Source of the DNA: Candidatus Gottesmanbacteria bacterium
GTDB taxonomy: Bacteria; Patescibacteriota; Microgenomatia; JACOXO01
DNA length: 62,977 nt
Direction: 5' to 3'
Assembly: GCA_016182365.1 (NCBI GenBank)
Contig: JACOXO010000015.1
Coordinates: forward strand, 1-62,977
The notes beneath the pieces are model-generated. The model was given only the letters and a program-made list of their open reading frames with translations. It was not told the DNA's origin and did no database searches. The position numbers were made by a program, and so were the translations under genes. Numbering within the stretch: the stretch's first letter is position 1; each line of letters begins with the position of its first letter. Positions 1 through 62,965 of the stretch are shown here, one piece after another.

Positions 1-178
1 AGGGCCAGTGGACCTTCGTGCCATCGCTTCGGCCGCGAAACTTATTGACTTTTTCGTCAAGCTCCGCAACCTTTTCGTTGGTCAACTCGAGTCCCTGGGC
101 CAGCTGATGGAGATTCTCCACAGTCCCTTCACCGTTATCATCCAGTTCGAGACCCTTCGGTTCATTATTGTCAGGCAT
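1..178 (-). CDS. Partial acidic coiled-coil-like protein (N-terminal 59 residues)
   Basis: On the minus strand an ATG at 176-178 is preceded by a perfect AGGAGG (184-189) at 5-nt spacing. The frame is open to the window edge, so the C-terminus is missing. The visible part begins MPDNNEPKGLELDD and continues as a heptad-like helix rich in Leu, Glu and Lys (for example LAQGLELTNEKVAELDEKV), which suggests a coiled coil. No enzyme motif is visible and I do not recognise the family. The strong Shine-Dalgarno and higher G+C contrast with most genes in the window, so the first 0.6 kb may have a different origin. An opposite-strand frame here (8-193) has no start signal and reads like antisense. Confidence 0.7.
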   Translation of the reverse strand, partial: MPDNNEPKGLELDDNGEGTVENLHQLAQGLELTNEKVAELDEKVNKFRGRSDGTKVHWP

Positions 179-408
179 TTTAACCTCCTATAGGTTTGCC
201 TTTCACAATTTTCTTATCCAAGATCACTGTTGATCTGGATTTCAATTCACTGCTTCAATCAGGCAAAGTGGAGAATCTTTTCAGATTTTCTCCTCTCGGT
301 AGACGAAACTACTTTTTTCTATTCGTCTTCCGGCCTGCCTGACTCCTATTTCCTAGTCCTCATTGACTTCGGTTTGTAACGGGGATAGGTCTCCCGTTTA
401 TGCTGCTG
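179..408 (-). promoter_or_regulatory. Structured leader with four successive hairpins
   Basis: Between the small membrane gene (409-582) and the start at 178 the minus strand can form four hairpins in a row: arms 378-383/393-398 (AACGGG/CCCGTT), 301-307/322-328 (AGACGAA/TTCGTCT), 270-275/288-293 (GGAGAA/TTCTCC) and 216-220 plus 222-226 with 231-240 (ATCCA, GATCA). The last hairpin ends 27 nt before the AGGAGG of the downstream gene. This is more structure than expected for a spacer and could be a cis-regulatory RNA leader or linked processing and terminator hairpins. I do not recognise a known riboswitch class. Confidence 0.4.
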
Positions 409-582
409 TCAGCTTTTTTTACGACGAATGAGATCAACAAGGGTTATGAGTGCAAGACCTAACAATATATAGTCCTGTTTACTTATGACTCCTTGTTGAT
501 ACGAAGCTATGAATGTTAGCGCCACTAGTACAATCCAGACGATTGAAAAGAGATCAAACACTGTGTTCAGAATTTTTTTCAC
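409..582 (-). CDS. Small single- or two-pass membrane protein (57 aa)
   Basis: A GTG start at 580-582 follows a GGGAGG Shine-Dalgarno (590-595 region) on the minus strand and the frame ends at a TGA at 409-411. The product of 57 residues has two hydrophobic stretches (about residues 13-27, containing IVWIVLVALTFIA, and 39-50, containing YILLGLALITLV) and ends in the basic tail RRKKS, as expected for a small inner-membrane protein with a cytoplasmic C-terminus. It is codirectional with the partial gene at 1-178, possibly one transcript. Family not recognised. Confidence 0.65.
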   Translation of the reverse strand: MKKILNTVFDLFSIVWIVLVALTFIASYQQGVISKQDYILLGLALITLVDLIRRKKS

Positions 583-940
583 GGTATCCTCCCGAGTTTT
601 TTTAGGCAGTTGCTCAACCTAAACACTAGATTTTAAACTAATGTATAAACTGGGCATGCCTAAAAAAGTGGAGAATTTTTTCTCAACAATTTGATACGTT
701 AGGTTATAAACCAAACGCTCATACTCAATAGCTTGCGCAAAATTGCAAGTTTTGAGATTTGAGTATTTTTATTTAATTTCCTGTATGCCTATGTTAAAGT
801 GCGAAGAATAGTTGCACGCCGTAGTCTCGCATTTATTGAAACTACTTTGTATTGCTATTCTTTTTCTGATCACTAATGTAATCAGAAGTTAATCCCGACT
901 GAAACGTCGGGACTTGCTTCTAACTACTTAATCATTTATT
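583..940. other. Gene-free stretch with hairpins and a GC-rich palindrome
   Basis: I see no convincing gene in these 358 bases. The word AAGTGGAGAAT near 266 recurs near 666. On the minus strand 671-684 gives a GAGAA/TTCTC hairpin followed by CACTTTTTT, which could be a weak terminator. The palindrome CCCGAC-6 nt-GTCGGG lies at 894-911 and its exact reverse complement recurs at 36356-36376. Confidence 0.45.
893..913. repeat. Dispersed GC-rich palindrome (copy 1)
   Basis: The 21 bases here are the exact reverse complement of 36356-36376 inside the YerC-like gene. Arms CCCGAC and GTCGGG enclose a 6-nt loop. A related palindrome (CCCCGAC/GTCGGGG) lies in the sortase gene at 32547-32566. It stands out against the AT-rich surroundings. 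Confidence 0.7.
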
Positions 941-1180
941 ATGTTAAATATGTTAACTAATTCTGATACACAAGTAATTTCCAATATCATTAAGACAGAA
1001 TTAAAACCCGTTAAAGATGACCTTAAGGTAATAAAAAAAGACCTTAAAGATTTAACCAATTTTGTTAAAGACTCTATACCTCCAATCTTTGAATGGACTG
1101 ATGACATACATAAATCTATTGTTAAAGAAAAACTTCTTGAAAGAGTAAAAGATCTCGAAAGAACTCTTAAAACTTCTTGA
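941..1180 (+). CDS. Small coiled-coil protein (79 aa)
   Basis: The frame runs from ATG 941 (an alternative in-frame ATG is at 950) to 1180. The product is lysine- and leucine-rich with repeated segments such as VKDDLKVIKKDLKDL and ends in a second helix, LERVKDLERTL. This resembles the small coiled-coil 'phage-tail-fibre-like' or hypothetical proteins common in CPR genomes, with hydrophobic positions spaced as in a coiled coil. No Shine-Dalgarno is visible. The antisense frame 928-1203 is a mirror of this composition and is not a gene. Function unknown. Confidence 0.55.
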   Translation: MLNMLTNSDTQVISNIIKTELKPVKDDLKVIKKDLKDLTNFVKDSIPPIFEWTDDIHKSIVKEKLLERVKDLERTLKTS

Positions 1181-1242
1181 TCCATTTTTATACTTTTTCT
1201 CATATTGACTGATTATCTTTTTGGGATTATTCTTTCCTTCCT

Positions 1243-1425
1243 ATGTCTTCAAAAGATTTTTGTGATGATTGCAACAAAGAACTAAAGCTTTACCATAAAG
1301 TAAGACTTTGGATATGGGGAGACCATTCCTTAAGAGACAAAGATTTCTGCTTTGATTGTTTTGCTAAACACTGGAAACCTATCCAAGAAAAATTCTCAGT
1401 TTATAAATCTACCAAATCTATTTAA
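1243..1425 (+). CDS. Small putative zinc-ribbon protein (60 aa)
   Basis: Starts MSSKDFCDDCNKEL and carries two CxxC pairs (FCDDC near residue 7 and FCFDC near residue 36), a spacing typical of a treble-clef or zinc-ribbon fold. A possible promoter (TTGACT near 1205, ATTATT near 1228) lies just upstream and the start lacks a Shine-Dalgarno. Its small size and lone zinc knuckle suggest a nucleic-acid- or protein-binding role, but that is inference; the family is not recognised. Confidence 0.5.
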   Translation: MSSKDFCDDCNKELKLYHKVRLWIWGDHSLRDKDFCFDCFAKHWKPIQEKFSVYKSTKSI

Positions 1426-1448
1426 TTTTTAAAGTGCTATTTAAGTCT

Positions 1449-1497
1449 CCGCCAGTCGGCGGATTGATCGACTGGTAAATGCTCCGCCAGCTGGCGG
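1449..1497. repeat. Two GC-rich palindromes, CCGCC...GGCGG type
   Basis: CCGCC-agtc-GGCGG occupies 1449-1462 and the perfect 14-bp palindrome CCGCCAGCTGGCGG occupies 1484-1497, both followed by GATT or ATT. The same 14-mer recurs inside the PEGA gene at 33689-33702. They are likely members of a dispersed palindromic repeat family. Confidence 0.7.
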
Positions 1498-1518
1498 ATT
1501 ACTAACCAGTCATCAAAA

Positions 1519-1616
1519 AGCCCGGGTGTTTCGATAACTTAATAAGAACAAGCAGGGGACAGTCTACTTATTTTTATCTCGCCTTTTAAAGGGCGGATTA
1601 TCAAAATACCCGGGCT
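1519..1616. repeat. 98-bp element with 19-bp terminal inverted repeats
   Basis: The left arm begins AGCCCGGGT (1519-1527) and the right arm ends ACCCGGGCT (1608-1616). The match extends inward (GTTTCGATAA against the complement of TTATCAAAAT), giving about 17 of 19 pairs. A further small hairpin CGCC/GGCG with a TTTTAAAG centre sits inside. No coding capacity. It may be a MITE-like unit or a long terminator hairpin between two converging genes. Confidence 0.5.
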
Positions 1617-1622
1617 CTATAA

Positions 1623-1657
1623 CCAAATTACAAAATCCAAAATCCAAATATCAAAAA
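1623..1657. repeat. Heptad array, word CCAAAAT
   Basis: Five units in exact 7-nt register: CCAAATT, ACAAAAT, CCAAAAT, CCAAATA, TCAAAAA. It lies just past the 3' end of the minus-strand surface-protein gene. Unlike the other heptad loci I see no inverted partner array nearby. Confidence 0.55.
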
Positions 1658-1667
1658 CTATTTACCC

Positions 1668-2402
1668 TTATTTAATTAACTTCTCAGCTTTTTTTCTCAA
1701 AACTACTCCGGCTCCAAGAACACTTGATAAAGCGGCAAATGACAATACAACTTCTTGAGGTCCAGTACTTGGAATCTCCTTAACAGGAGGAATTACTTTT
1801 TTTCCAGTAATTACTTTGTCTCCTCTTTGGATACAGAATTTTGCAATGTCTTCATTAAATCTGTCGCCACTTGCACTAATTTGTACACGGTTTACTAAAT
1901 CACATCTTATAGGATTTGGTATGTTTTCGGCTTTATAAACTCTACCTGTAAAGTGATATTCTCTTGATTCACCATCAGCTAAGTTATTAATTTTAAACTT
2001 AACTGCTCCGTTAACTCCTTGATCTTTTGTATATTCACCAGGACCAGAAATAAAGGTTACAAATTCTGGCCAGATATCAGTAACAGTGATTTCATCAATC
2101 ATTGCTCCACCTGTGTTTCTGACAAAGATTCTGAATTCTATTTCCTCTTCTGGTTTGAATTTTCTAACATCAAATTCTGTGATATTATCAACCCAGGATT
2201 CTACATTTCCGCCTTTTTCAACACGTGAGTATTTGATTTGTTTATCAACAATCATTTCTCCTCTTTTAGGACAAGTAACTCCACCACCATAAATAGGGGT
2301 ACAACCACTATCAGCAATTACATTACTCGCAAACAAAAGACTTCCGAGGAATAACCCAGAAGTAATTACTATATTTTTGAGGATAGATTTTGTGTATCTC
2401 AT
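1668..2402 (-). CDS. Secreted DUF11-like surface protein with IPSTG sorting-type signal
   Basis: The 244-residue product has an N-terminal signal peptide (hydrophobic stretch about residues 11-30, ending near ASNVIADS), then a DUF11-like/Ig-like domain with the phrase VRNTGGAMIDEITVTDIWPE, where a charged domain pairs 'conflicting' strands as in cell-wall adhesins. The C-terminus has IPSTG near residue 211, a hydrophobic segment (VVLSFAALSSVLGAGVVL) and a KKAEKLIK tail. This is the layout of a sortase substrate, with IPSTG in place of LPXTG. A sortase is encoded at 32339-33088, which could process it. A promoter lies at 2491-2519. No Shine-Dalgarno precedes the ATG. Confidence 0.75.
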   Translation of the reverse strand: MRYTKSILKNIVITSGLFLGSLLFASNVIADSGCTPIYGGGVTCPKRGEMIVDKQIKYSRVEKGGNVESWVDNITEFDVRKFKPEEEIEFRIFVRNTGGAMIDEITVTDIWPEFVTFISGPGEYTKDQGVNGAVKFKINNLADGESREYHFTGRVYKAENIPNPIRCDLVNRVQISASGDRFNEDIAKFCIQRGDKVITGKKVIPPVKEIPSTGPQEVVLSFAALSSVLGAGVVLRKKAEKLIK

Positions 2403-2425
2403 AAATTTTTTATATATAAAAAATT

Positions 2426-2446
2426 CTATTAGTACAAAACTAATAG
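2426..2446 (-). promoter_or_regulatory. 5' UTR hairpin of the surface-protein gene
   Basis: CTATTAG (2426-2432) and CTAATAG (2440-2446) form a 7-bp stem with a 7-nt loop in the roughly 80-nt leader of the minus-strand gene starting at 2402. It could affect mRNA stability or translation; no further evidence. Confidence 0.35.
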
Positions 2447-2490
2447 AACTATAAATTAATACTCTTTACTGTATCGTTTACAGTTGGGGA

Positions 2491-2519
2491 AATATAGCAC
2501 AAAAAGTATTAAAAGTCAA
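2491..2519 (-). promoter_or_regulatory. Sigma70-type promoter for the surface-protein gene
   Basis: On the minus strand TTGACT (2514-2519) and TATATT (2491-2496) are separated by 17 nt. The predicted transcript starts near 2484 and has a leader of about 80 nt containing the 2426-2446 hairpin. Confidence 0.65.
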
Positions 2520-2541
2520 CTATAGGATGTGGTTAGGGATC

Positions 2542-2618
2542 AGGTTTTAGGTTGTAGGTTTTAGTAAAGAAAATTTGCTTGAATTCCTATAACCTAACAC
2601 CTAGAACCTATAACCTAA
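2542..2618. repeat. Inverted heptad arrays, word AGGTTNN
   Basis: The left array is AGGTTTT, AGGTTGT, AGGTTTT (2542-2562). The right array, read on the minus strand, is AGGTTAT, AGGTTCT, AGGTGTT, AGGTTAT (2589-2616). Both keep a strict 7-nt period and face each other across about 24 nt, so the region folds as a long imperfect hairpin. It lies between two divergent genes, directly upstream of the -10 at 2624-2632. Confidence 0.7.
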
Positions 2619-2623
2619 TTTTG

Positions 2624-2632
2624 TGTTAGAAT
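2624..2632 (+). promoter_or_regulatory. Extended -10 promoter, probably leaderless
   Basis: TGT-TAGAAT ends 8 nt before the ATG at 2641, so transcription should begin at or within a base or two of the start codon. No Shine-Dalgarno is present. Confidence 0.5.
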
Positions 2633-2640
2633 ATCTTTGT

Positions 2641-4818
2641 ATGGTTAATGCCCAAACTAATAGGGTGCTTCTTGAGGTCCGTGTGCCTAAGTCAACCGAG
2701 CAAACCTCTGCCCATTTCGAGCAGATCCTAAGTAACTTATCCCGCCTGGGGCCTCAAACAATAAGTGAGAAGTTACTCCTTAGAAAGCCTTCATTTACCT
2801 TTGAGATTGTTTCAGCTTCGGGTACAGTACATTTTGTTATATCCACTCCGCCTCAACTTAGAGGGTATCTTGAGTCTCAGCTTGCAGCCCAATACCCTAA
2901 GATTGTAATAAGTCCCATCAGGGAATACATGGGTTTGTTTGAGGGTAAGAATATTGAGGTAGCACGATTAGTATTTAACTTCCCCTCATATTTCCCTTTA
3001 AAAACAGCAGAGGACTTTGGGGAAATAGACTCATTATCAGGTGTTTTGGGTACTCTTGCAAAGGTTCCGGCAGATTGCCTAGCCTTGGTTCAGATACTAA
3101 TCCGGCCTATGGGTTCATCCTGGAGGGGAGCAGGACATAGGGTTATTGCAAGGGGGGTAAAAGACCCAACAAATGGGACTCAGAAATCCCACCCTCAGGC
3201 ATCTTTAATACAGACTAAAATTGACAAAAACGGCTTTGCTTTTGAGCTGCGCCTCGCCGTCAAGGCGGGCTCACCGATAGCAAGCCGCGAGCTGCTCTTT
3301 TCTCTAGCCGGAGCCTATGGGGTATTTGACCTTGGTGAGGGTAACAGCTTCAGGCTGGCCAGACCTATTCCACCTTTGAGACCAAATCTGCTCGGGCTTA
3401 TTAAGTCAAGGCGTTTGACCTTATTTAGGCCATGGGAGTTTGCCAATACAGCAGAGCTTGCTGGACTTTACCATTTGCCCAATAAAAACATTTCGGGAAT
3501 CAGAAATCTAGCTTGGGGACGTACCTTTTTAGGAGAACCTCCGGAGAACCTTCCAGTGGCTCAAAATGCGACTGAGAAAGAAAAGCATGCTATCAACTTC
3601 TTTGGCAGGACAGAATATAAGAATAAACAGACAATATTTGGAGTTAAAAGAGGGGACAGACGTCGCCATATGTACGTTATAGGTAAAACTGGCGCAGGAA
3701 AATCGACCTTAATTGCCAATATGGCCATCAATGATATGCGCAATAAAGAGGGAGTAGCTGTAATTGACCCTCATGGAGATCTATCTAGCATTATGCTTGA
3801 CTACATACCCTCGTATCGCTTAAATGACGTTGTTTATTTGGACCCTTCAGATACTAAAAACCCTTTCCATTTTAACCCTCTTGAGGTCAAAGCCTCACCT
3901 GAAAACAAGGAGCTCATAGCCTCAGGCATAGTATCTATATTCTACAAACTCTACGCTCATTCCTGGGGACCCAGGCTCGAATATATCCTCAGAAATACCA
4001 TTCTTACTCTTCTCGAGTATCCCAATGCAACCCTGGTTGATGTGGCTCCGCTTTTAACTAATGACGCATTCAGGGACAGGGTATTATTGAAGGTAACTGA
4101 TCCAGTTATAAAGCGCTTCTGGGTGGATGAATTTGCCAATATGCACCCACGGCTTAAAAGTGAGGCTATAGCTCCGATACTTAATAAAATAGGTCAGTTT
4201 GTAACCAGTCCGCTTATAAGGGGGATTATAGGTTCGCCAGTTTCTACAATTGACCTGCAGGAAATTATGGATAAAGGCAAGATCCTTATTCTCAATCTCT
4301 CCCAGGGTAAGCTGGGCGAGGATAACGCAGCTTTACTTGGAGCTATGTTTATTACCAAAATGCAGCTTGCTGCCATGCACAGGGTCTATCAGGAGGAGGA
4401 GAAAAGGAAAGACTTTTACATGTACGTAGATGAATTCCAGAATTTTGCCACAACCTCATTTATTAAAATTCTATCAGAGGCCAGGAAATACAGGCTTAAC
4501 CTGATTCTTGCTAACCAATATATAGGCCAGATTCATGAGGATGTGCAAAAAGCTATTTTTGGAAATACAGGCTCCCTTCTATGTTTTCCAATTGGCGCAG
4601 GCGATGCACATCTTCTGGCCCGGGAATTTGCAGGACTTTATAAAGATGAAGAGCTGGTCAGTTTATCCAACTACCAGATAATTCTTAAACTGGCAATTGA
4701 TAACATAACCAGCATGCCTTTCTTTGCCACCACCTTGCCTCTTCCAAGTTCCAAGAATAAAAATAAGGAGAAAGCGATTAAGAATTCACGAGAACGTTAT
4801 ACTAAAAAGGCCAAGTAA
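2641..4818 (+). CDS. VirD4/TraD-like conjugative ATPase (type IV secretion family)
   Basis: A 725-residue P-loop ATPase of the HerA/TraD/VirD4 superfamily that would pump DNA or protein through a membrane complex. Walker A GKTGAGKST is near residue 347, a second conserved VAVIDPHGDL lies about 30 residues later, and the Walker-B-like YMYVDEFQNFAT is near residue 594. The N-terminal 330 residues are the family's poorly conserved domain, with no clear membrane segment. I prefer ATG 2641 because the GTG at 2623 would lie inside the promoter. The gene is richer in G+C than its neighbours and carries a CGCC/GGCG palindrome (3248-3265). No other T4SS gene is in the window; solo copies are usual in CPR genomes. 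Confidence 0.8.
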   Translation: MVNAQTNRVLLEVRVPKSTEQTSAHFEQILSNLSRLGPQTISEKLLLRKPSFTFEIVSASGTVHFVISTPPQLRGYLESQLAAQYPKIVISPIREYMGLFEGKNIEVARLVFNFPSYFPLKTAEDFGEIDSLSGVLGTLAKVPADCLALVQILIRPMGSSWRGAGHRVIARGVKDPTNGTQKSHPQASLIQTKIDKNGFAFELRLAVKAGSPIASRELLFSLAGAYGVFDLGEGNSFRLARPIPPLRPNLLGLIKSRRLTLFRPWEFANTAELAGLYHLPNKNISGIRNLAWGRTFLGEPPENLPVAQNATEKEKHAINFFGRTEYKNKQTIFGVKRGDRRRHMYVIGKTGAGKSTLIANMAINDMRNKEGVAVIDPHGDLSSIMLDYIPSYRLNDVVYLDPSDTKNPFHFNPLEVKASPENKELIASGIVSIFYKLYAHSWGPRLEYILRNTILTLLEYPNATLVDVAPLLTNDAFRDRVLLKVTDPVIKRFWVDEFANMHPRLKSEAIAPILNKIGQFVTSPLIRGIIGSPVSTIDLQEIMDKGKILILNLSQGKLGEDNAALLGAMFITKMQLAAMHRVYQEEEKRKDFYMYVDEFQNFATTSFIKILSEARKYRLNLILANQYIGQIHEDVQKAIFGNTGSLLCFPIGAGDAHLLAREFAGLYKDEELVSLSNYQIILKLAIDNITSMPFFATTLPLPSSKNKNKEKAIKNSRERYTKKAK

Positions 4819-4822
4819 TAAG

Positions 4823-5200
4823 TTATTTTTCCCAATACGCATTAACACCGGTAACTCCCAGCATTTTTTTATCAAAACTGGCAAGCCACCCTTTTTGGGA
4901 GTGGGCGATAATTATACAGTCAGCTATATCCAGATTTGTTTGTTCAAATATTTTTACTGCTTTTTTAATAAATACAGACGTTTTTACATTTTTTTGAGAA
5001 ATAAGAAAGTTAAAAAGCTCAATAAGTTTATTGCGGTCTACTTTATACCCTTGGGTTAATACGTATTCAATTTCAGGAAATACAACTTCAGGAATGATTA
5101 TAACTTTTTCTGTATCAAATATTTTTTTTACTTTCTGAGCCTGAATTGGAATATCGTTAGTAAAGAAGCGTATCAATGAATTGGTATCTAAAAATACCAT
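4823..5200 (-). CDS. PIN-domain toxin (VapC-like ribonuclease)
   Basis: The 125-residue protein starts MVFLDTNSLIRFF, the usual PIN motif with Asp5, and retains acidic residues in PEIEYVL (Glu46), DIADCII (Asp93) and ASFDKKM, which together bind the catalytic metal. PIN toxins cleave RNA, often tRNA. It follows the AbrB-type antitoxin gene by 12 nt and is convergent with the T4SS ATPase gene (4-nt gap). It should be transcribed from the promoter at 5463-5491. Confidence 0.85.
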   Translation of the reverse strand: MVFLDTNSLIRFFTNDIPIQAQKVKKIFDTEKVIIIPEVVFPEIEYVLTQGYKVDRNKLIELFNFLISQKNVKTSVFIKKAVKIFEQTNLDIADCIIIAHSQKGWLASFDKKMLGVTGVNAYWEK

Positions 5201-9176: not shown

Positions 9177-9596
9177 ATGGAAAGATCTGTTGTACTTATA
9201 AAACCCGATGGGATGAAAAAAAGAGTTATTGGGGAGGTTATAAACCGGATGGAGAAATCGGGACTTAAGGTTGTTGGACTTAAGATGATTAAACTTTCCG
9301 ATGCACTTTTAGATGTCTGGTATGCACATCATAAACAAAAACCTTATTTTGCCGGGATTAAATCCTATATGATGTCAACACCAGTTGTTGCCATGATCTG
9401 GGAAGGGGACAATGCTGTTAAAATTATTAGGGATCTTGCAGGGCCTACTGATTCAACAAAAGCTGCAAAAGGGACAATAAGAGGGGATTTAGGCAAAGAT
9501 ATTCAGGAAAATGTCATTCATGCCTCAGATTCCAAAGAGTCGGCAGAAAAAGAAGTGTCCCTGATGTTCCAGCCCGACGAAATCCACGAGCTATAA
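9177..9596 (+). CDS. ndk: Nucleoside diphosphate kinase
   Basis: Transfers the gamma phosphate of ATP to NDPs through a phosphohistidine. The active-site His115 is in NVIHASDS, the P-loop-like lysine is in IKPDG, and RGDLG is present. Length (139 aa) is normal. It starts 1 nt after the M16 peptidase stop. It supplies dTTP and dCTP together with folA, thyA and dcd elsewhere in the window. Its last 41 nt are repeated in diverged form at 10319-10359, on the far side of the downstream toxin-antitoxin module. Confidence 0.95.
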   Translation: MERSVVLIKPDGMKKRVIGEVINRMEKSGLKVVGLKMIKLSDALLDVWYAHHKQKPYFAGIKSYMMSTPVVAMIWEGDNAVKIIRDLAGPTDSTKAAKGTIRGDLGKDIQENVIHASDSKESAEKEVSLMFQPDEIHEL

Positions 9597-9601
9597 TTTT
9601 G

Positions 9602-9686: not shown

Positions 9687-9914
9687 ATGCAACAAGTAGT
9701 GTCTAAATCAGAACTTAAAGCAAAAATTCTTGAGTACCTGAGAAACGTGGAGAAAGAAAAACAGGAACTTATTGTTACCCATGCAGGCAAGCCTGTTGCC
9801 AAAATAATTCCCTACAAAGAAAAAGCTATCCTAGATTCGCTTAGGAATACTGTAATTTACTACAAAGATCCAACTGAATCTGTAGGAGAAGAAGAGTGGG
9901 AGCTGCTTAAATGA
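9687..9914 (+). CDS. Phd/YefM-type antitoxin
   Basis: A 75-residue protein beginning MQQVVSKSELKAKILEYLRNVE, the helix of Phd/YefM proteins, followed by the strand-turn ELIVTHAGKPVAKIIPY, which is diagnostic of the family (KPVARLVP-like). The acidic C-terminus (DPTESVGEEEWELL) would wrap around and neutralise the toxin. It overlaps the PIN toxin by 4 nt (ATGA), giving translational coupling. Confidence 0.85.
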   Translation: MQQVVSKSELKAKILEYLRNVEKEKQELIVTHAGKPVAKIIPYKEKAILDSLRNTVIYYKDPTESVGEEEWELLK

Positions 9915-10309
9915 TACTTTTAGATACCCACGTATTAATTTGGTATGTTAATAGCCCGGATAAACTATCGGAAAAGTCCTCTAAAAAAATAAATCTGGAA
10001 ATTAAGAACAAAAATGATATATTAATTTCCTCGATAACTGTATGGGAAATTTACATGCTTGTTAAAAAAGGAAGGCTTAAGCTTAGTTTGGATGTAGATA
10101 CATGGATTGAGAAAGTAGAGAAACTCAGCTTCTTACAGTTTGTACCAGTTAACAATAAAATAGCTGCAAAAAGTGTTATCCTGCCAGGCTCTTTTCATAA
10201 AGATCCAGCTGATAGGATTATTGTATCTACAGCATTACAAAATGGTGCCACGTTAATAACCAGTGATAGAAGGATTCTAAAATATTCCCCACTTCAATCG
10301 TTATGGTAA
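9911..10309 (+). CDS. PIN-domain toxin (VapC-like ribonuclease)
   Basis: The 132 residues begin MILLDTHVLIWYV with the first catalytic Asp, then ISSITVWEI supplies Glu, HKDPADRIIV supplies the third acidic centre, and ITSDRRIL the fourth. This is a complete PIN active site for Mg-dependent RNA cleavage. It belongs to the Phd-paired PIN subgroup ('YcgL/VapC' with WYV motif). Together with its antitoxin it lies between ndk and a diverged copy of the ndk 3' end, indicating insertion at that site. Confidence 0.88.
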   Translation: MILLDTHVLIWYVNSPDKLSEKSSKKINLEIKNKNDILISSITVWEIYMLVKKGRLKLSLDVDTWIEKVEKLSFLQFVPVNNKIAAKSVILPGSFHKDPADRIIVSTALQNGATLITSDRRILKYSPLQSLW

Positions 10310-10318
10310 TTCAAAGGC

Positions 10319-10359
10319 TGTCCCTAATTTTTCAGCCAGACGAAATCCACGAAGTTTAA
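10319..10359 (+). pseudogene. Duplicate of the ndk 3' end
   Basis: These 41 bases match 9556-9596, the last 13 codons and stop of ndk, at 34 of 41 positions, with a 14-nt identical core. Translated in the same frame it reads LSLIFQPDEIHEV and stop, against VSLMFQPDEIHEL and stop in ndk. The stop overlaps the stop of the converging gene 10356-10850 by 4 nt, suggesting that this was the original end of ndk before the toxin-antitoxin module arrived. Confidence 0.8.
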
Positions 10360-10850
10360 TAATCCTTATTTCCATTACCCTTTCCTGTAGATCTATTTTT
10401 TGAATAATCAAAAACAGTTATGATTTGTATTTTGGGAAGCTCAACCATAGACAATCCCAACCTATTTGCTTCGTAGGATGATAACTGTATTTTTGCTCCA
10501 GCTCCATCGATGTAGCCTAGTTGCCGGGGAATAATATTATCGCCAATTTGAATTGGTGGCCTATCATAAGGAGGATATCTTTTAAATACCGTGCGTTCCA
10601 TTTGAATTCTTTGTTTTAAGTTATTATCAGCGATTTCTGCTTGTTCTTTCTCTCTTTTATAATGGTCTACTGTTCTATCGACTATTTTTTTCAATAGAGT
10701 AAACTTGAGGATTTCTGCAATACTTTCTTGCCGTCTAATTTCATATGGAGTTAGTTTTCTACCTCCATTTTTTTGATATTGTTTAGATAGTCTTTGAGCT
10801 CTTTTTCGTGCCTTATGGATATCCCTTAAATTTGCTTTCCTTTCATTCAT
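10356..10850 (-). CDS. Hypothetical basic protein (164 aa)
   Basis: The N-terminal 60 residues are strongly basic and helical (KARKRAQRLSKQYQKNGGRKL), followed by a mixed segment with proline-rich RYPPYDRPPIQIG and a C-terminal beta-like stretch. No known domain is recognised. Its stop overlaps the ndk-end copy by 4 nt in convergent orientation. It has no Shine-Dalgarno and is preceded by an AT-rich spacer of 48 nt from the next minus-strand gene. Confidence 0.55.
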   Translation of the reverse strand: MNERKANLRDIHKARKRAQRLSKQYQKNGGRKLTPYEIRRQESIAEILKFTLLKKIVDRTVDHYKREKEQAEIADNNLKQRIQMERTVFKRYPPYDRPPIQIGDNIIPRQLGYIDGAGAKIQLSSYEANRLGLSMVELPKIQIITVFDYSKNRSTGKGNGNKDY

Positions 10851-43550: not shown

Positions 43551-44096
43551 ATGAAAATAGACAGACTAGGAATACTACTTAAGCAGAAACAAAAATTGTT
43601 TCATACAGGTGATTTAGCGTTGCTCTGGGGAATTAGTAATAATTCAACTCTTTATACAACAATTAGCCGTTATATCAAGAAAAAAATTCTGTTCCCAATT
43701 CATAAAGGTTTATATTCTGTTGTTCTACCTGACGAACTCAATTCATATACTTTAGGTATAGGATTTCTTCATAGGTTTGCTTACATAAGCTGCGAAACAA
43801 TACTAGTTAAAGCCGGAATTATCATGCAAAACATTTATCCAATAACTTTAGTTTCTGACGTTTCAAGAAGTTTTGTTTTATATAATAAAATGTATCTTTG
43901 TAGGAAGCTAAAATTGGAGTATCTACATAATACTGTTGGTATTTTAGAAAGTGATGGAATACTTACAGCCGTGGTTGAAAGAGCTATCGCTGATTTATTA
44001 TATTTCAATCCTCATTATCATTTTGATAATAAAGATAGGGTTGACTGGGATAAAGTAAAATTTATTAGAAAGGAAATAGGCTATGATTCTGGTTAG
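43551..44096 (+). CDS. abiEi: AbiEi-type antitoxin
   Basis: 181 residues. The N-terminal winged helix (LFHTGDLALLWGISNNSTLYTTISRYIKKKILFPIHKGLYSV, in outline FHTGDLALLWGI then RYIKKKILFPIHKGLYSV) is typical of AbiEi and binds DNA; the C-terminal domain carries AVVERAIADLLYF. It overlaps the toxin gene by 14 nt. AbiEi represses the operon and counteracts the nucleotidyltransferase toxin. Confidence 0.85.
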   Translation: MKIDRLGILLKQKQKLFHTGDLALLWGISNNSTLYTTISRYIKKKILFPIHKGLYSVVLPDELNSYTLGIGFLHRFAYISCETILVKAGIIMQNIYPITLVSDVSRSFVLYNKMYLCRKLKLEYLHNTVGILESDGILTAVVERAIADLLYFNPHYHFDNKDRVDWDKVKFIRKEIGYDSG

Positions 44097-44817
44097 ACCA
44101 GAGGATTTAATTCATAAAGTCTGGCTTCTTAGACTATTAACCGAGATAATTGATAGTGACTATTTATCCCAAAACTTGTATTTTAAAGGCGGTACAGCTG
44201 CTTCAATGTTGGGTTTTCTGGATCGTTTTTCTGTTGATCTGGATTTTGACCTTAAAAAAGGAGGCAATAAAGAAAGAATAAGAAAACAATTCTATCAAAT
44301 TTTCAAAAAAATTGACTTGAAAATTTACTATGAAAATCCGAAAAATCTTCTATTCTCATTAAAATATTCTGCAAACAAAGATCAAAGAAATACAATTCGT
44401 TTAAGTATTACAGACGAGCTTTATAAGAACAATATTTATATTCCAAAATATCTTCCTGAAATTGATAGGATTGTTAACTGCCAAACAATTGAGACTATGT
44501 TTGCCCACAAAATGGTTGCAGTTATTGATCGTTTTGCCAAATACAAAGCAGTTGCCGGAAGAGATATTTATGATATTCATCATTTTTTAATTTCCGGGTA
44601 CAATTATAGTAAAGATATTATTGAGGAAAGAACAAATTTTTCCTTAAAAGATTTTTTACAAAAACTAATTTCTTTTATTGAAAAATATTTAACCCAAACT
44701 ATTATTAATCAAGATTTAAACACACTTTTACCACAAGATATTTTTCAAAAAATAAGGAAGCGGCTCAAAACAGAAACTTTAATGCTTTTAAAACAGGAGC
44801 TTAAAAAATATGAATAA
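44083..44817 (+). CDS. abiEii: AbiEii-type nucleotidyltransferase toxin
   Basis: 244 residues with the family signature LYFKGGTAASMLGFLDRFSVDLDFDL: GG-T for nucleotide and DLDFD for metal. The later lysine/histidine region (MFAHKMVAVIDRF and GRDIYDIHHFL) also fits AbiEii. These toxins add nucleotides to tRNA or other targets, blocking growth or phage multiplication. Its 3' end overlaps the CoA enzyme gene by 8 nt. Confidence 0.88.
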   Translation: MILVRPEDLIHKVWLLRLLTEIIDSDYLSQNLYFKGGTAASMLGFLDRFSVDLDFDLKKGGNKERIRKQFYQIFKKIDLKIYYENPKNLLFSLKYSANKDQRNTIRLSITDELYKNNIYIPKYLPEIDRIVNCQTIETMFAHKMVAVIDRFAKYKAVAGRDIYDIHHFLISGYNYSKDIIEERTNFSLKDFLQKLISFIEKYLTQTIINQDLNTLLPQDIFQKIRKRLKTETLMLLKQELKKYE

Positions 44818-59728: not shown

Positions 59729-60061
59729 ATGGGAGTTACCACTGTTAAGGTAATTGTCAAAAATCCGCTTACACCTTCTAATTCTAGTGAAGGGGAATTT
59801 CTAGTTGATAGTGGCGCTCATTATACGGTTTTACCTGATACTGTGGTTAAAAAACTAAAACTCAAACCCTCATATACTCAGGAATTTTCATTGGCTGACG
59901 GTAGAATAATTAAAAGAAAATTGGGAAGCGCTCTAATTAATTTTAAAGGACGCGAGCTGGCAGTTCCGGTTGTATTAGGTGAGAAAGGCGATAGCGCCCT
60001 TTTGGGGGTAACTACTCTTGAAAGTTTCGGTGTCGGCCACAGCAAATTAATACTTGCTTAA
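59729..60061 (+). CDS. Retropepsin-like aspartic protease domain protein
   Basis: 110 residues. The motif FLVDSGAHYTVLP (Asp27 in D-S-G-A) is the single-lobe aspartic-protease signature of clan AA, with the downstream hydrophobic-hydrophobic-Gly block LLGVTTLESFG. Proteins of this type act as homodimers. It has no signal peptide. Function unknown; the leaderless promoter is consistent with an independent transcript. Confidence 0.7.
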   Translation: MGVTTVKVIVKNPLTPSNSSEGEFLVDSGAHYTVLPDTVVKKLKLKPSYTQEFSLADGRIIKRKLGSALINFKGRELAVPVVLGEKGDSALLGVTTLESFGVGHSKLILA

Positions 60062-60477: not shown

Positions 60478-61506
60478 ATGTTATCTAAATCTGACTTTGT
60501 ATTTTCAACTTCTGAGCTTAAAACATATCTTGGTCAGAAGGGGATTAATATGAATAAAGCGGGCATGGATGTAAAGCATCCATTTTTCATGATGGTGCCT
60601 AAATACTATCTGGATTTGATTGACTGGAATGACAATAATGATCCTTTGCGAAAAATGGTGATTACCAGTTCACTTGAGAATGATATTAAAAAATATGAGT
60701 TAACTGATCCTATTGGTGATAGGCCTCATACTCCTGTTCCTGGAATTGTGCACAGGTATCAAGATCGTTGTCTTCTTATGCTTTCAAATGTTTGTGCAGT
60801 ACACTGCAGATTTTGCTTTAGGAAAAATCTTCTGAATTCAAATACCTATGATTTCAAAAAAAGTATTGAGTATATAAAAAAGCATAAGGAAATTTGGGAA
60901 GTAATTCTGTCAGGAGGGGATCCTTTTATGATGGAAGATATATTTTTGCAGAAGATAATTACAGCTTTGAAACAAATTAAACATATTAAAATGATCAGAT
61001 TTCATACTCGTACTCCAGCTGTTTATCCAAAAAGAATAACAGACGATTTTGTAAAAATCATTTCCCAAGCTAAACCATCAATAATTGTTTTTCATATTAA
61101 CCATCCAAGGGAGATTACTCCTGAATTTATACAGTCAGTTGCCAAGTTAAAAAAAACATCAAGTATACTCTTATCACAGACAGTGTTATTGAAGGGTGTA
61201 AATGACAATACACAGACTTTAACAAGGTTATTTAAGAGTTTAGTTGAGATTGGAATAAAACCTTATTATCTTCATCATCTCGACTACACGGTTGGGACAG
61301 ATTATTTTAGAATTTCGGTTGAGGAGGGAAAAAAGATTTATAGGGAGTTAAGCAGTATTTCCGGTCACTGTATTCCTGAATACGTAATAGATATTCCTGG
61401 TGGTTTAGGTAAAATCCCTGTTTTCTGGTTTAATCACGTTGGAAAAAATAAGTATCAAGCCACCGACTTTGCAGGGAAAAAAGTAGTTTACAGCGACCCA
61501 TCTTAA
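60478..61506 (+). CDS. kamA: Radical SAM enzyme of the KamA family
   Basis: 342 residues. The 4Fe-4S motif CxxxCxxC is Cys106-Cys110-Cys113 in CAVHCRFCFRKN; downstream VILSGGDPFMMED and IRFHTRTPAVYPKRI match lysine 2,3-aminomutase. Length fits both lysine aminomutase and EpmB-type lysine-moving enzymes; no epmA is visible, so the substrate is uncertain. Its last 18 codons recur in diverged form at 62912-62965, on the far side of the converging HTH gene. Confidence 0.85.
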   Translation: MLSKSDFVFSTSELKTYLGQKGINMNKAGMDVKHPFFMMVPKYYLDLIDWNDNNDPLRKMVITSSLENDIKKYELTDPIGDRPHTPVPGIVHRYQDRCLLMLSNVCAVHCRFCFRKNLLNSNTYDFKKSIEYIKKHKEIWEVILSGGDPFMMEDIFLQKIITALKQIKHIKMIRFHTRTPAVYPKRITDDFVKIISQAKPSIIVFHINHPREITPEFIQSVAKLKKTSSILLSQTVLLKGVNDNTQTLTRLFKSLVEIGIKPYYLHHLDYTVGTDYFRISVEEGKKIYRELSSISGHCIPEYVIDIPGGLGKIPVFWFNHVGKNKYQATDFAGKKVVYSDPS

Positions 61507-62843
61507 TCAGAATCTAACAGCCCTAAGAAGTGTAATCCGCGATTTTTAAGCATCATAATTGCCTGTTTAGATACTCCTCTTTCAAGAGCAATTGCTTCAA
61601 ATGTTTTGTGATTGGTTTCTTCTTCTAAACCGTAATAAGCATTAAGAACTGTATAATAGTTAGGTTTACTATCTCTTAGCTGGTCAAATAATTCAGGTCG
61701 ATTTTTCCTAAGCAGCATAATTTTTTGCCACATTTCCCACTGAGAGATTATCAGTTTAGCAGGGGGAATTCGATCATCTACTTTACACTTTTGTCTTAAT
61801 TCGAATCTACTTTTTGCTTCACCATTGGCTTTTCCCCAATAAAGTACCCGATCAGTCAGGTTATTAGCGCGGGTTATTATTGCTTTATCATTTGATGGTA
61901 TGCCACACCAGTGCATAATAGTACTGAAAAGGCGATGTGTAATAACAGTTGTCAGACCAATTTTTTTGGCAATTTTTCTAAGACTCAATGGATTGCTTGT
62001 GTCAAAATACATTAAAGCAACCAATGGTTCATTAAGCTCGAAATCCTGCATAAGCTGGAAAATTTTCCCTTTTTCAGGATTTTGAAGCGTTTCCTCAAAT
62101 GCAACTTTTTTTGCTTTGAAGTCTAACGGTCTTCTTGATTCATTATATATTTCACTTTCTTTAATCCGTCCTGTAGCGATTTCTATTCCATAGCTTTGAG
62201 CTAATTTCCGGATAGAAGGTCCAACCATATTATCGAATAAACTTGGAGGAAGGTGGATTGTTTTAAGATTAGGACAGATCCCAATTATTTTTTGAATCGT
62301 TGCAACGGTAACAAAACTACCCTGGGTAATATGTATAAAAGACGTGAATTCTCCTAGATCCCCGAGATCTTCTTTTGCCGATAGAATGCTAAAAGAGGGT
62401 TGCTTATGTTGAAAGATTACTTGCGAATCCTTGATCCTTCTGGATCGTTCAAATTCAGATGCTTGTTTAGATTCTTTAATTCCTTTCCTGTTCTTTGGTT
62501 TTTCTGTATTTGGTTCCCGCTTAAAAGTTGGTTGATTAGATTCCATTGCCGAAGCTTTCATTTCTGTTTCTATTACGCTTCTTAAATAGCTTAATGTGGT
62601 TTTATCTCCAAGTAGTTGTTCGCGCCGTGTAAGAAATATTTCCCTTTTAGGATCTAATAAATATTCTTTGAGAGCAGCGGGGGGTTTTCTTCTGGAAACG
62701 TAAATGTCTCTTAAAAGCGAATCTGCTTCGGTCACGACCTGCAATTTATAAGGGTCCTGGCCTATTACTTGTTCGAGTTTAGTAGGTTTTTTAACCTGAG
62801 CTAATTTTTGTTCCTCTGGTGGTCTTTTATAACTATCTTGCAT
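61503..62843 (-). CDS. Protein with sigma-region-4-like HTH domains
   Basis: 446 residues. An extended, basic N-terminus (about 1-150) is followed by two HTH-like regions: LVALMYFDTSNPLSLRKIAKKIGLTTVITHRLF (about 280-315) and YYGLEEETNHKTFEAIALERGVSKQAIMMLKNRGLHFLG (about 405-445), both resembling region 4 of sigma70. Like other proteins of this type in the window it has no region 2. Its stop overlaps kamA's by 4 nt, and a copy of the kamA 3' end lies 69 nt upstream of its start. Confidence 0.6.
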   Translation of the reverse strand: MQDSYKRPPEEQKLAQVKKPTKLEQVIGQDPYKLQVVTEADSLLRDIYVSRRKPPAALKEYLLDPKREIFLTRREQLLGDKTTLSYLRSVIETEMKASAMESNQPTFKREPNTEKPKNRKGIKESKQASEFERSRRIKDSQVIFQHKQPSFSILSAKEDLGDLGEFTSFIHITQGSFVTVATIQKIIGICPNLKTIHLPPSLFDNMVGPSIRKLAQSYGIEIATGRIKESEIYNESRRPLDFKAKKVAFEETLQNPEKGKIFQLMQDFELNEPLVALMYFDTSNPLSLRKIAKKIGLTTVITHRLFSTIMHWCGIPSNDKAIITRANNLTDRVLYWGKANGEAKSRFELRQKCKVDDRIPPAKLIISQWEMWQKIMLLRKNRPELFDQLRDSKPNYYTVLNAYYGLEEETNHKTFEAIALERGVSKQAIMMLKNRGLHFLGLLDSD

Positions 62844-62911
62844 AGATAAGTAGGATTATATCATTTCCTATAGGTCTATAAACAATGGATTTAAATATTT
62901 GAGAATTTTTT

Positions 62912-62965
62912 AAATACCAAGTTACCGACTTTGCAGGGAAAAAAGTATCCTATAAAGATTCCTAA
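62912..62965 (+). pseudogene. Duplicate of the kamA 3' end
   Basis: Read in frame this gives KYQVTDFAGKKVSYKDS and stop, against KYQATDFAGKKVVYSDPS and stop at the end of kamA. Twenty-four consecutive bases (62924-62947) are identical to 61462-61485. It is the far boundary of the inserted gene 61503-62843. Confidence 0.85.

Follow-up and report, generated by a model that had tools for sequence, protein, structure and literature searches.

Restriction-modification systems are described as inserting with long, variable target duplications (Nobusato et al. 2000, cited in PMC3031569 and PMC3874152). Minimal mobile elements are described in Neisseria (Saunders and Snyder 2002, cited in PMC1538595). 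Homology-facilitated illegitimate recombination joins small linear DNA by homology at one end and illegitimately at the other (PMC3240628). The pdif modules of Acinetobacter are small, rich in toxin-antitoxin (TA) genes and without a recombinase of their own (PMC6449649). It is not settled how TA modules move among chromosomes when no mobility gene is apparent, above all in bacteria that are streamlined and host-dependent.

The DNA analysed here, referred to as the window, is a stretch of 62,977 nucleotides from Candidatus Gottesmanbacteria and constitutes an entire contig (C19) of an assembly of 1.04 Mb, 42 contigs and 92% completeness. Genomes of class relatives are given G-numbers and sampled stretches L-numbers. 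The small size of the genomes and the genes present point, by inference, to Patescibacteria. The kamA and ndk loci of the window are two of at least a dozen small cassette insertions of the same kind in the genome and its class. The results suggest that these cassettes carry a piece of the neighbouring gene instead of an insertion enzyme of their own. Each gene-end copy is the readable scar of a single insertion that records site, orientation, cargo and donor relatedness, and such copies can be tallied in whatever genome is at hand.

The kamA and ndk loci

The kamA-like host gene (60478..61506, + strand) is intact and encodes a KamA-family radical SAM protein (TIGR00238, 281 bits, cut-off 199). 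Its last 57 nt (61450-61506, +) form the proximal gene-end copy. The cargo gene for a 446-aa protein (61503..62843, - strand) is convergent with kamA, the two stops overlapping by TTAA. Beyond it, the kamA 3′ end recurs as a distal copy of 18 codons, counting the stop, in the same frame (62912..62965, +). It reads KYQVTDFAGKKVSYKDS followed by the stop, compared with KYQATDFAGKKVVYSDPS and stop at the kamA end; identity is 89% over 37 nt, with a 24-nt identical run at 62924-62947. No kamA-derived sequence was found upstream of the distal copy. The preliminary description had reported that 54 nt of the kamA end, in frame and with a stop, are repeated beyond an inserted convergent gene, and both the copy and the orientation of the gene are borne out.

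The distal copy ends 12 nt before the contig end and, as the window is the whole contig, the sequence beyond it is not visible. A misassembly at this copy is unlikely, because many positions differ between the two copies and the single-contig genomes G007 and G064 contain this layout internally. When contigs were scanned with kamA, a single distant match was obtained and no empty kamA site from a close relative was found. The closest kamA in the class (G082, 56%) has no insert, and the native copy cannot be told from it because its 3′ end is too different; the native copy at kamA is only inferred.

The kamA cargo protein has a C-terminal sigma-region-4-like HTH and a middle Rossmann-like/DUF1699-like alpha/beta domain. 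Its score against sigma-70 region 4 (PF04545) was 11.8 bits, below the cut-off of 24.1. The structure model was built from four sequences (mean pLDDT 71); the fold of its C-terminal domain matched sigma region 4 locally (probability 0.99, TM by target 0.78, but E 0.89), and no significant match was obtained for the whole protein. The protein is rare, with homologues in 3 of 372 other class genomes searched, one of which adjoins a pheT 3′ end as judged by eye, and it was absent from the viral contigs, phages and plasmids searched. It is taken as a lineage-specific DNA-binding protein of unknown target that was carried in the same way as the TA modules.

A retropepsin-like aspartyl protease ORF was observed just 5′ of kamA (59729-60061). 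It is of the same family as cargo of the glmS and first glyA cassettes described below, in which the retropepsin-like gene comes after a small ORF, resembling a two-gene conflict module.

The second case of the window, also claimed in the preliminary description, is likewise real. The host gene ndk (9177..9596, +; NF001908, 180 bits, cut-off 155) is followed by a Phd/YefM antitoxin gene (9687..9914, +; PF02604, 35.9 bits, cut-off 29.8) and a VapC-like PIN toxin gene (9911..10309, +; PF01850, 67.2 bits, cut-off 23.6). The toxin stop is separated by 9 nt from the distal copy of the ndk 3′ end (SLIFQPDEIHEV and stop; 10319..10360, +), which overlaps the stop of a convergent gene at 10356-10850. 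The proximal copy is the last 41 nt of ndk, and the ndk end (9556-9597) and the distal copy are 83% identical over 42 nt. By gene content, with adjacent antitoxin and PIN genes both above their family cut-offs, the Phd/YefM-VapC insert is a predicted type II TA module. All 30 class relatives of this VapC lie elsewhere and none adjoins ndk; two weak repeat matches were seen among these places.

Two other features of the window were recorded. A second PIN toxin gene (4823-5200) is convergent with the gene at 2623-4818 and has no detectable gene-end copy. Two overlapping ORFs like an AbiEi/AbiEii toxin-antitoxin pair (43551-44817) lie within a run of glycosyltransferase genes.

Frequency, cargo and borders of the gene-end copies

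Stretches of the same genome totalling ~420 kb (~40% of the genome) and stretches of class relatives were sampled. ORFs were called by a simple, crude script, the last 90-120 nt of each were searched within 4-5 kb downstream, and copies in frame and ending in a stop were retained, a filter that missed glmS. Among 349 ORFs, 8 in-frame 3′-end copies were found in addition to glmS, compared with a mean of 0.10 and a maximum of 1 in 40 permutations of the gene/downstream pairs. No inverted (reverse-complement) copies were seen, none of 201 ORFs in 200 kb of E. coli K-12 had a copy, and widening the search to 80 kb gave no strong copies beyond 2 kb. The preliminary description had proposed comparing such copies with a shuffled background and determining their orientation; the former comparison is clearly positive and the copies are direct only.

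Chance similarity, truncated tandem gene duplication or assembly artefact could be invoked for the weak cases (bcp in L036, L022b and the C-terminal tails in L030), which may be chance or common tails, and for kamA, whose copy sits at a contig end. As a general account, these explanations are refuted by the permutation test. The absence of inverted copies and of paralogous sequence 5′ of the copies, and the occurrence of cases inside single-contig genomes, also speak against them, and they are considered barely credible.

Among the 8 filtered copies, two are C-terminal tails common to neighbouring L030 ORFs and one (bcp) is doubtful. The reliable set consists of kamA, ndk, glmS, glyA (two in tandem) and a clp gene (two short); L022b and L037 are weaker. 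With extra stretches selected for their PIN genes, the list grew by pyrE, leuS and a femX-like gene. Gene-end copies are less frequent in class relatives than in this genome, the cases there being mrdA (G007), uridine-kinase-like and glycosyltransferase-like genes (G064) and dnaB (G012). Host genes were checked against NCBIfam, except the femX-like, clp and G064 glycosyltransferase-like genes.

Other candidates were set aside. The bcp copy is of low complexity, and the copies in G053 (L061) and G002 are tandem paralogues. The DQWL tails of L030 stand apart from the cassettes and belong to three neighbouring ORFs with a common C-terminal tail; these consecutive ORFs (L030 51-4184; 400, 603 and 368 aa) end in ADQWLNEMLKES, VDQWLDDMLKQS and ADQWLDEMLRGN, perhaps a common docking or targeting tag. 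L037 was kept as a weaker case: at 103-3113, the last ~35 codons of a 486-aa gene recur (65%) beyond a 482-aa membrane glycosyltransferase-like ORF, probably an old and strongly diverged case of the same kind.

The inserts span 0.65-1.95 kb and hold 1-4 genes, and host-sequence repeats of 24-65 nt (one diverged copy of 104 nt) are present at 12 or more loci. The cargo is mostly toxin-antitoxin (PIN/Phd/RHH/MazE/Fic/NYN). This share is only indicative because stretches with PIN genes were over-sampled; in unselected stretches, PIN or NYN genes are present in 4 of 9 cassettes. Phd-VapC pairs are found at ndk and mrdA and RHH-VapC pairs at pyrE and leuS, the leuS PIN gene and its RHH-like partner being reversed beside a 272-aa gene. 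The femX-like gene has MazE-type-PIN and Fic cargo, and dnaB (G012) has PIN_3 with a SpoVT/AbrB-like small gene that lacks a Pfam match. PIN_3 is also the cargo of the second glyA cassette, PIN that of L022b and NYN that of the second clp cassette. Retropepsin-like two-gene units occupy the glmS and first glyA cassettes, while a nucleotidyltransferase and a PPDK_N protein are found in G064 and the sigma-region-4-like protein at kamA. Thus, when the cargo families are listed as had been suggested, TA genes prevail and the HTH gene at kamA is an unusual cargo. Domain searches recognised no recombinase in any cargo.

The last cargo stop is often within ~30 nt of the gene-end copy. In the pyrE, second glyA and dnaB cassettes the toxin ORF continues in frame into the host copy and uses its stop. 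The earlier proposal of a general way of inserting genes at 3′ ends holds in that the same layout follows many genes, but 5′ ends are also used. In a mirror case, 66 nt of the 5′ end of a yifB/comM-type gene flank a nucleotidyltransferase (G012), and in a weaker one an AbiE-like pair, named by eye, lies between copies in G053. The gene-end rule is therefore not strictly 3′.

Apparent terminal inverted repeats at leuS were explained as two promoter -35 boxes. An Rfam search of the stretches examined returned tRNAs only. An intergenic hairpin, TTTCCACCTTAGAGGTGGAACAGCCTCGCCACCTCGGG, lies directly 3′ of glyA (L022 7085-7135) and is repeated elsewhere in the contig; it has no Rfam match.

Divergence of the copies and the insertion route

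The 15 copy pairs have 45 codons with synonymous and 21 with non-synonymous differences. If as many bases were substituted at random, 14.1 +/- 3.4 synonymous codons would be expected (maximum 26 in 2000 simulations). In nearly all pairs the match extends no further than the stop codon (or start codon); L022b is the only pair to match past the stop, by about 10 nt. The mostly synonymous differences mean that each copy evolved as a functional gene end, the two in separate lineages. Such coding-type divergence is not expected if a duplicate decays, but it is if gene ends evolved separately and were then juxtaposed. Judged from the sequences, the copies are two diverged gene ends brought together. 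The copy earlier described beyond the inserted gene is real but, with this excess of synonymous changes, not a fresh duplication.

A long target duplication, as proposed for restriction-modification genes, would have duplicated the recipient target, with decay of one copy. The small addictive cargo, the lack of a transposase and the long, variable direct repeats could be accounted for in this manner. The synonymous-rich divergence could not, nor could copies that end at the stop or start codon and do not run into the flank (except the ~10 nt at L022b), nor a dnaB end common to another genome (G095). This explanation is regarded as improbable.

The dnaB gene of G012 is 68-77% identical to those of ten family members. 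Its identity to dnaB of G095 is 75% overall but rises to 91% over the final 66 nt; of 419 windows along the gene, none is more G095-specific. Beyond dnaB, G012 and G095 share the promoter/antitoxin leader of the cassette, and the toxins differ. The G095-like end of G012 dnaB and the common leader indicate that the gene end travels with the cassette. The order in G012 is cassette, second dnaB end, 1 nt and tRNA-Leu(caa); unrelated cargo fills this interval in seven other relatives. The dnaB-tRNA-Leu(caa) interval (L241-L251) is a cargo hot spot, with different cargo in each of 8 family members. At mrdA, the 3′ end can be read in 13 family members, and the copy and cassette are absent from all of them. 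In contig G065:C16 (L252, L253, L255), DnaB was observed in a single 1352-aa open frame in which the helicase is divided in three, a pattern that two inteins would give.

The favoured mechanism, held with moderate confidence and with its enzymology unproven, is an additive insertion guided by homology that needs no dedicated recombinase. The layout and its frequency, the coding-type divergence, the dnaB 3′ end common to two genomes and the cassette-free relatives are observed; the recombination route is inferred. Donor DNA would consist of the last tens of bases of a related organism's gene plus cargo, usually a toxin-antitoxin pair, and would recombine with the recipient's version of the same gene. 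With its left end fixed by homology, the insertion would keep the host gene whole and give it the donor 3′ end. On the right, the cargo would join recipient DNA 25-65 nt ahead of the native stop, so that the recipient's own gene end would persist downstream as the second copy. Toxin addiction, inferred from the type of cargo, may then favour retention of the cassette. The route is analogous to homology-facilitated illegitimate recombination of the additive kind.

If the join fell farther downstream, recipient DNA would be replaced without a copy being left, a possible reason for the lack of copies at most PIN loci. No copy was found at 29 of 29 other PIN loci in the class; the route therefore accounts for few TA insertions, or else its marks are lost with time. 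A donor was identified for neither the kamA nor the ndk cassette among the genomes searched, none of which is of the same family. Against the route, the joins cluster at the toxin stop, with three toxin ORFs entering the host copy, more tightly than a purely illegitimate join predicts. The copies are also short for RecA, and the kamA cargo is not a TA module. ComEC is present in the genome, but the match has in-frame stops.

A Campbell-type circle insertion or a trans-acting integrase leads to nearly the same product. Site-specific integration would require a tyrosine recombinase, either trans-acting or later lost, and a circle whose att site mimics the gene 3′ end, the copies being attL and attR. 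The geometry is that of phage 21/e14 at icd, where the restored gene end is mostly synonymously diverged, and of SCC at rlmH. The copy lengths (24-65 nt) are att-like, the tandem glyA cassettes resemble SCC arrays, and the whole genome has two tyrosine recombinases, a number that is also counted against a site-specific enzyme. However, an integrase was recognised in no cargo, and no larger integrase-bearing element with such copies was found within 80 kb. No 9-mer is common to any two of the unrelated host gene ends, which argues against a common recombination core. Nor was a dif site found at the borders (best 14-17 of 28, background mean 15.4, maximum 18). Site-specific integration is considered unlikely.

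In the form of homology-guided insertion proposed here, the mobile units would form a class of their own in small-genome bacteria. Each would be a gene end plus a toxin-antitoxin pair without a recombinase, addressed by the core-gene end that it has captured, which spreads between species by gene homology, repairs the gene and leaves the old end behind. This broader proposal is tentative and is held with slightly less than even confidence. If the model holds, core genes would be landing pads patched with foreign ends, and gene phylogenies would be affected at their tips.

Comparison with known systems

Among known systems, long target duplications and minimal mobile elements come nearest. Like the long target duplications, the cassettes combine small selfish cargo without a transposase with long, variable direct repeats of host sequence. 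Here, in contrast, the copies are diverged homologues, coding only and at gene ends, so that one would be imported, and the cargo is mostly type II TA. The expectation that the repeat arises by duplication of the recipient's own target is not met (45 synonymous against 14.1; dnaB end common to G095).

Integrase islands (SCC at rlmH, e14/phage 21 at icd) share the restored gene end and the displaced native end. The cassettes differ in having no integrase, no common core and a cargo of 1-4 genes. An integrase encoded in the element, as in such islands, is lacking; the kamA insert of the window is a single HTH gene. Unlike pdif modules, the cassettes have no 28-bp dif-like XerC/XerD border sites, and their borders are host coding sequence.

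As in minimal mobile elements, varied cargo without a mobility gene lies between the same conserved genes at dnaB to tRNA-Leu; the criterion of varied cargo between conserved flanks is met at dnaB-tRNA-Leu(caa) in 8 relatives. A gene-end duplicate is not known to belong to the description of minimal mobile elements. Homology-facilitated illegitimate recombination is known from experiments, whereas here the illegitimate end recurs within the last 25-65 nt of the same gene.
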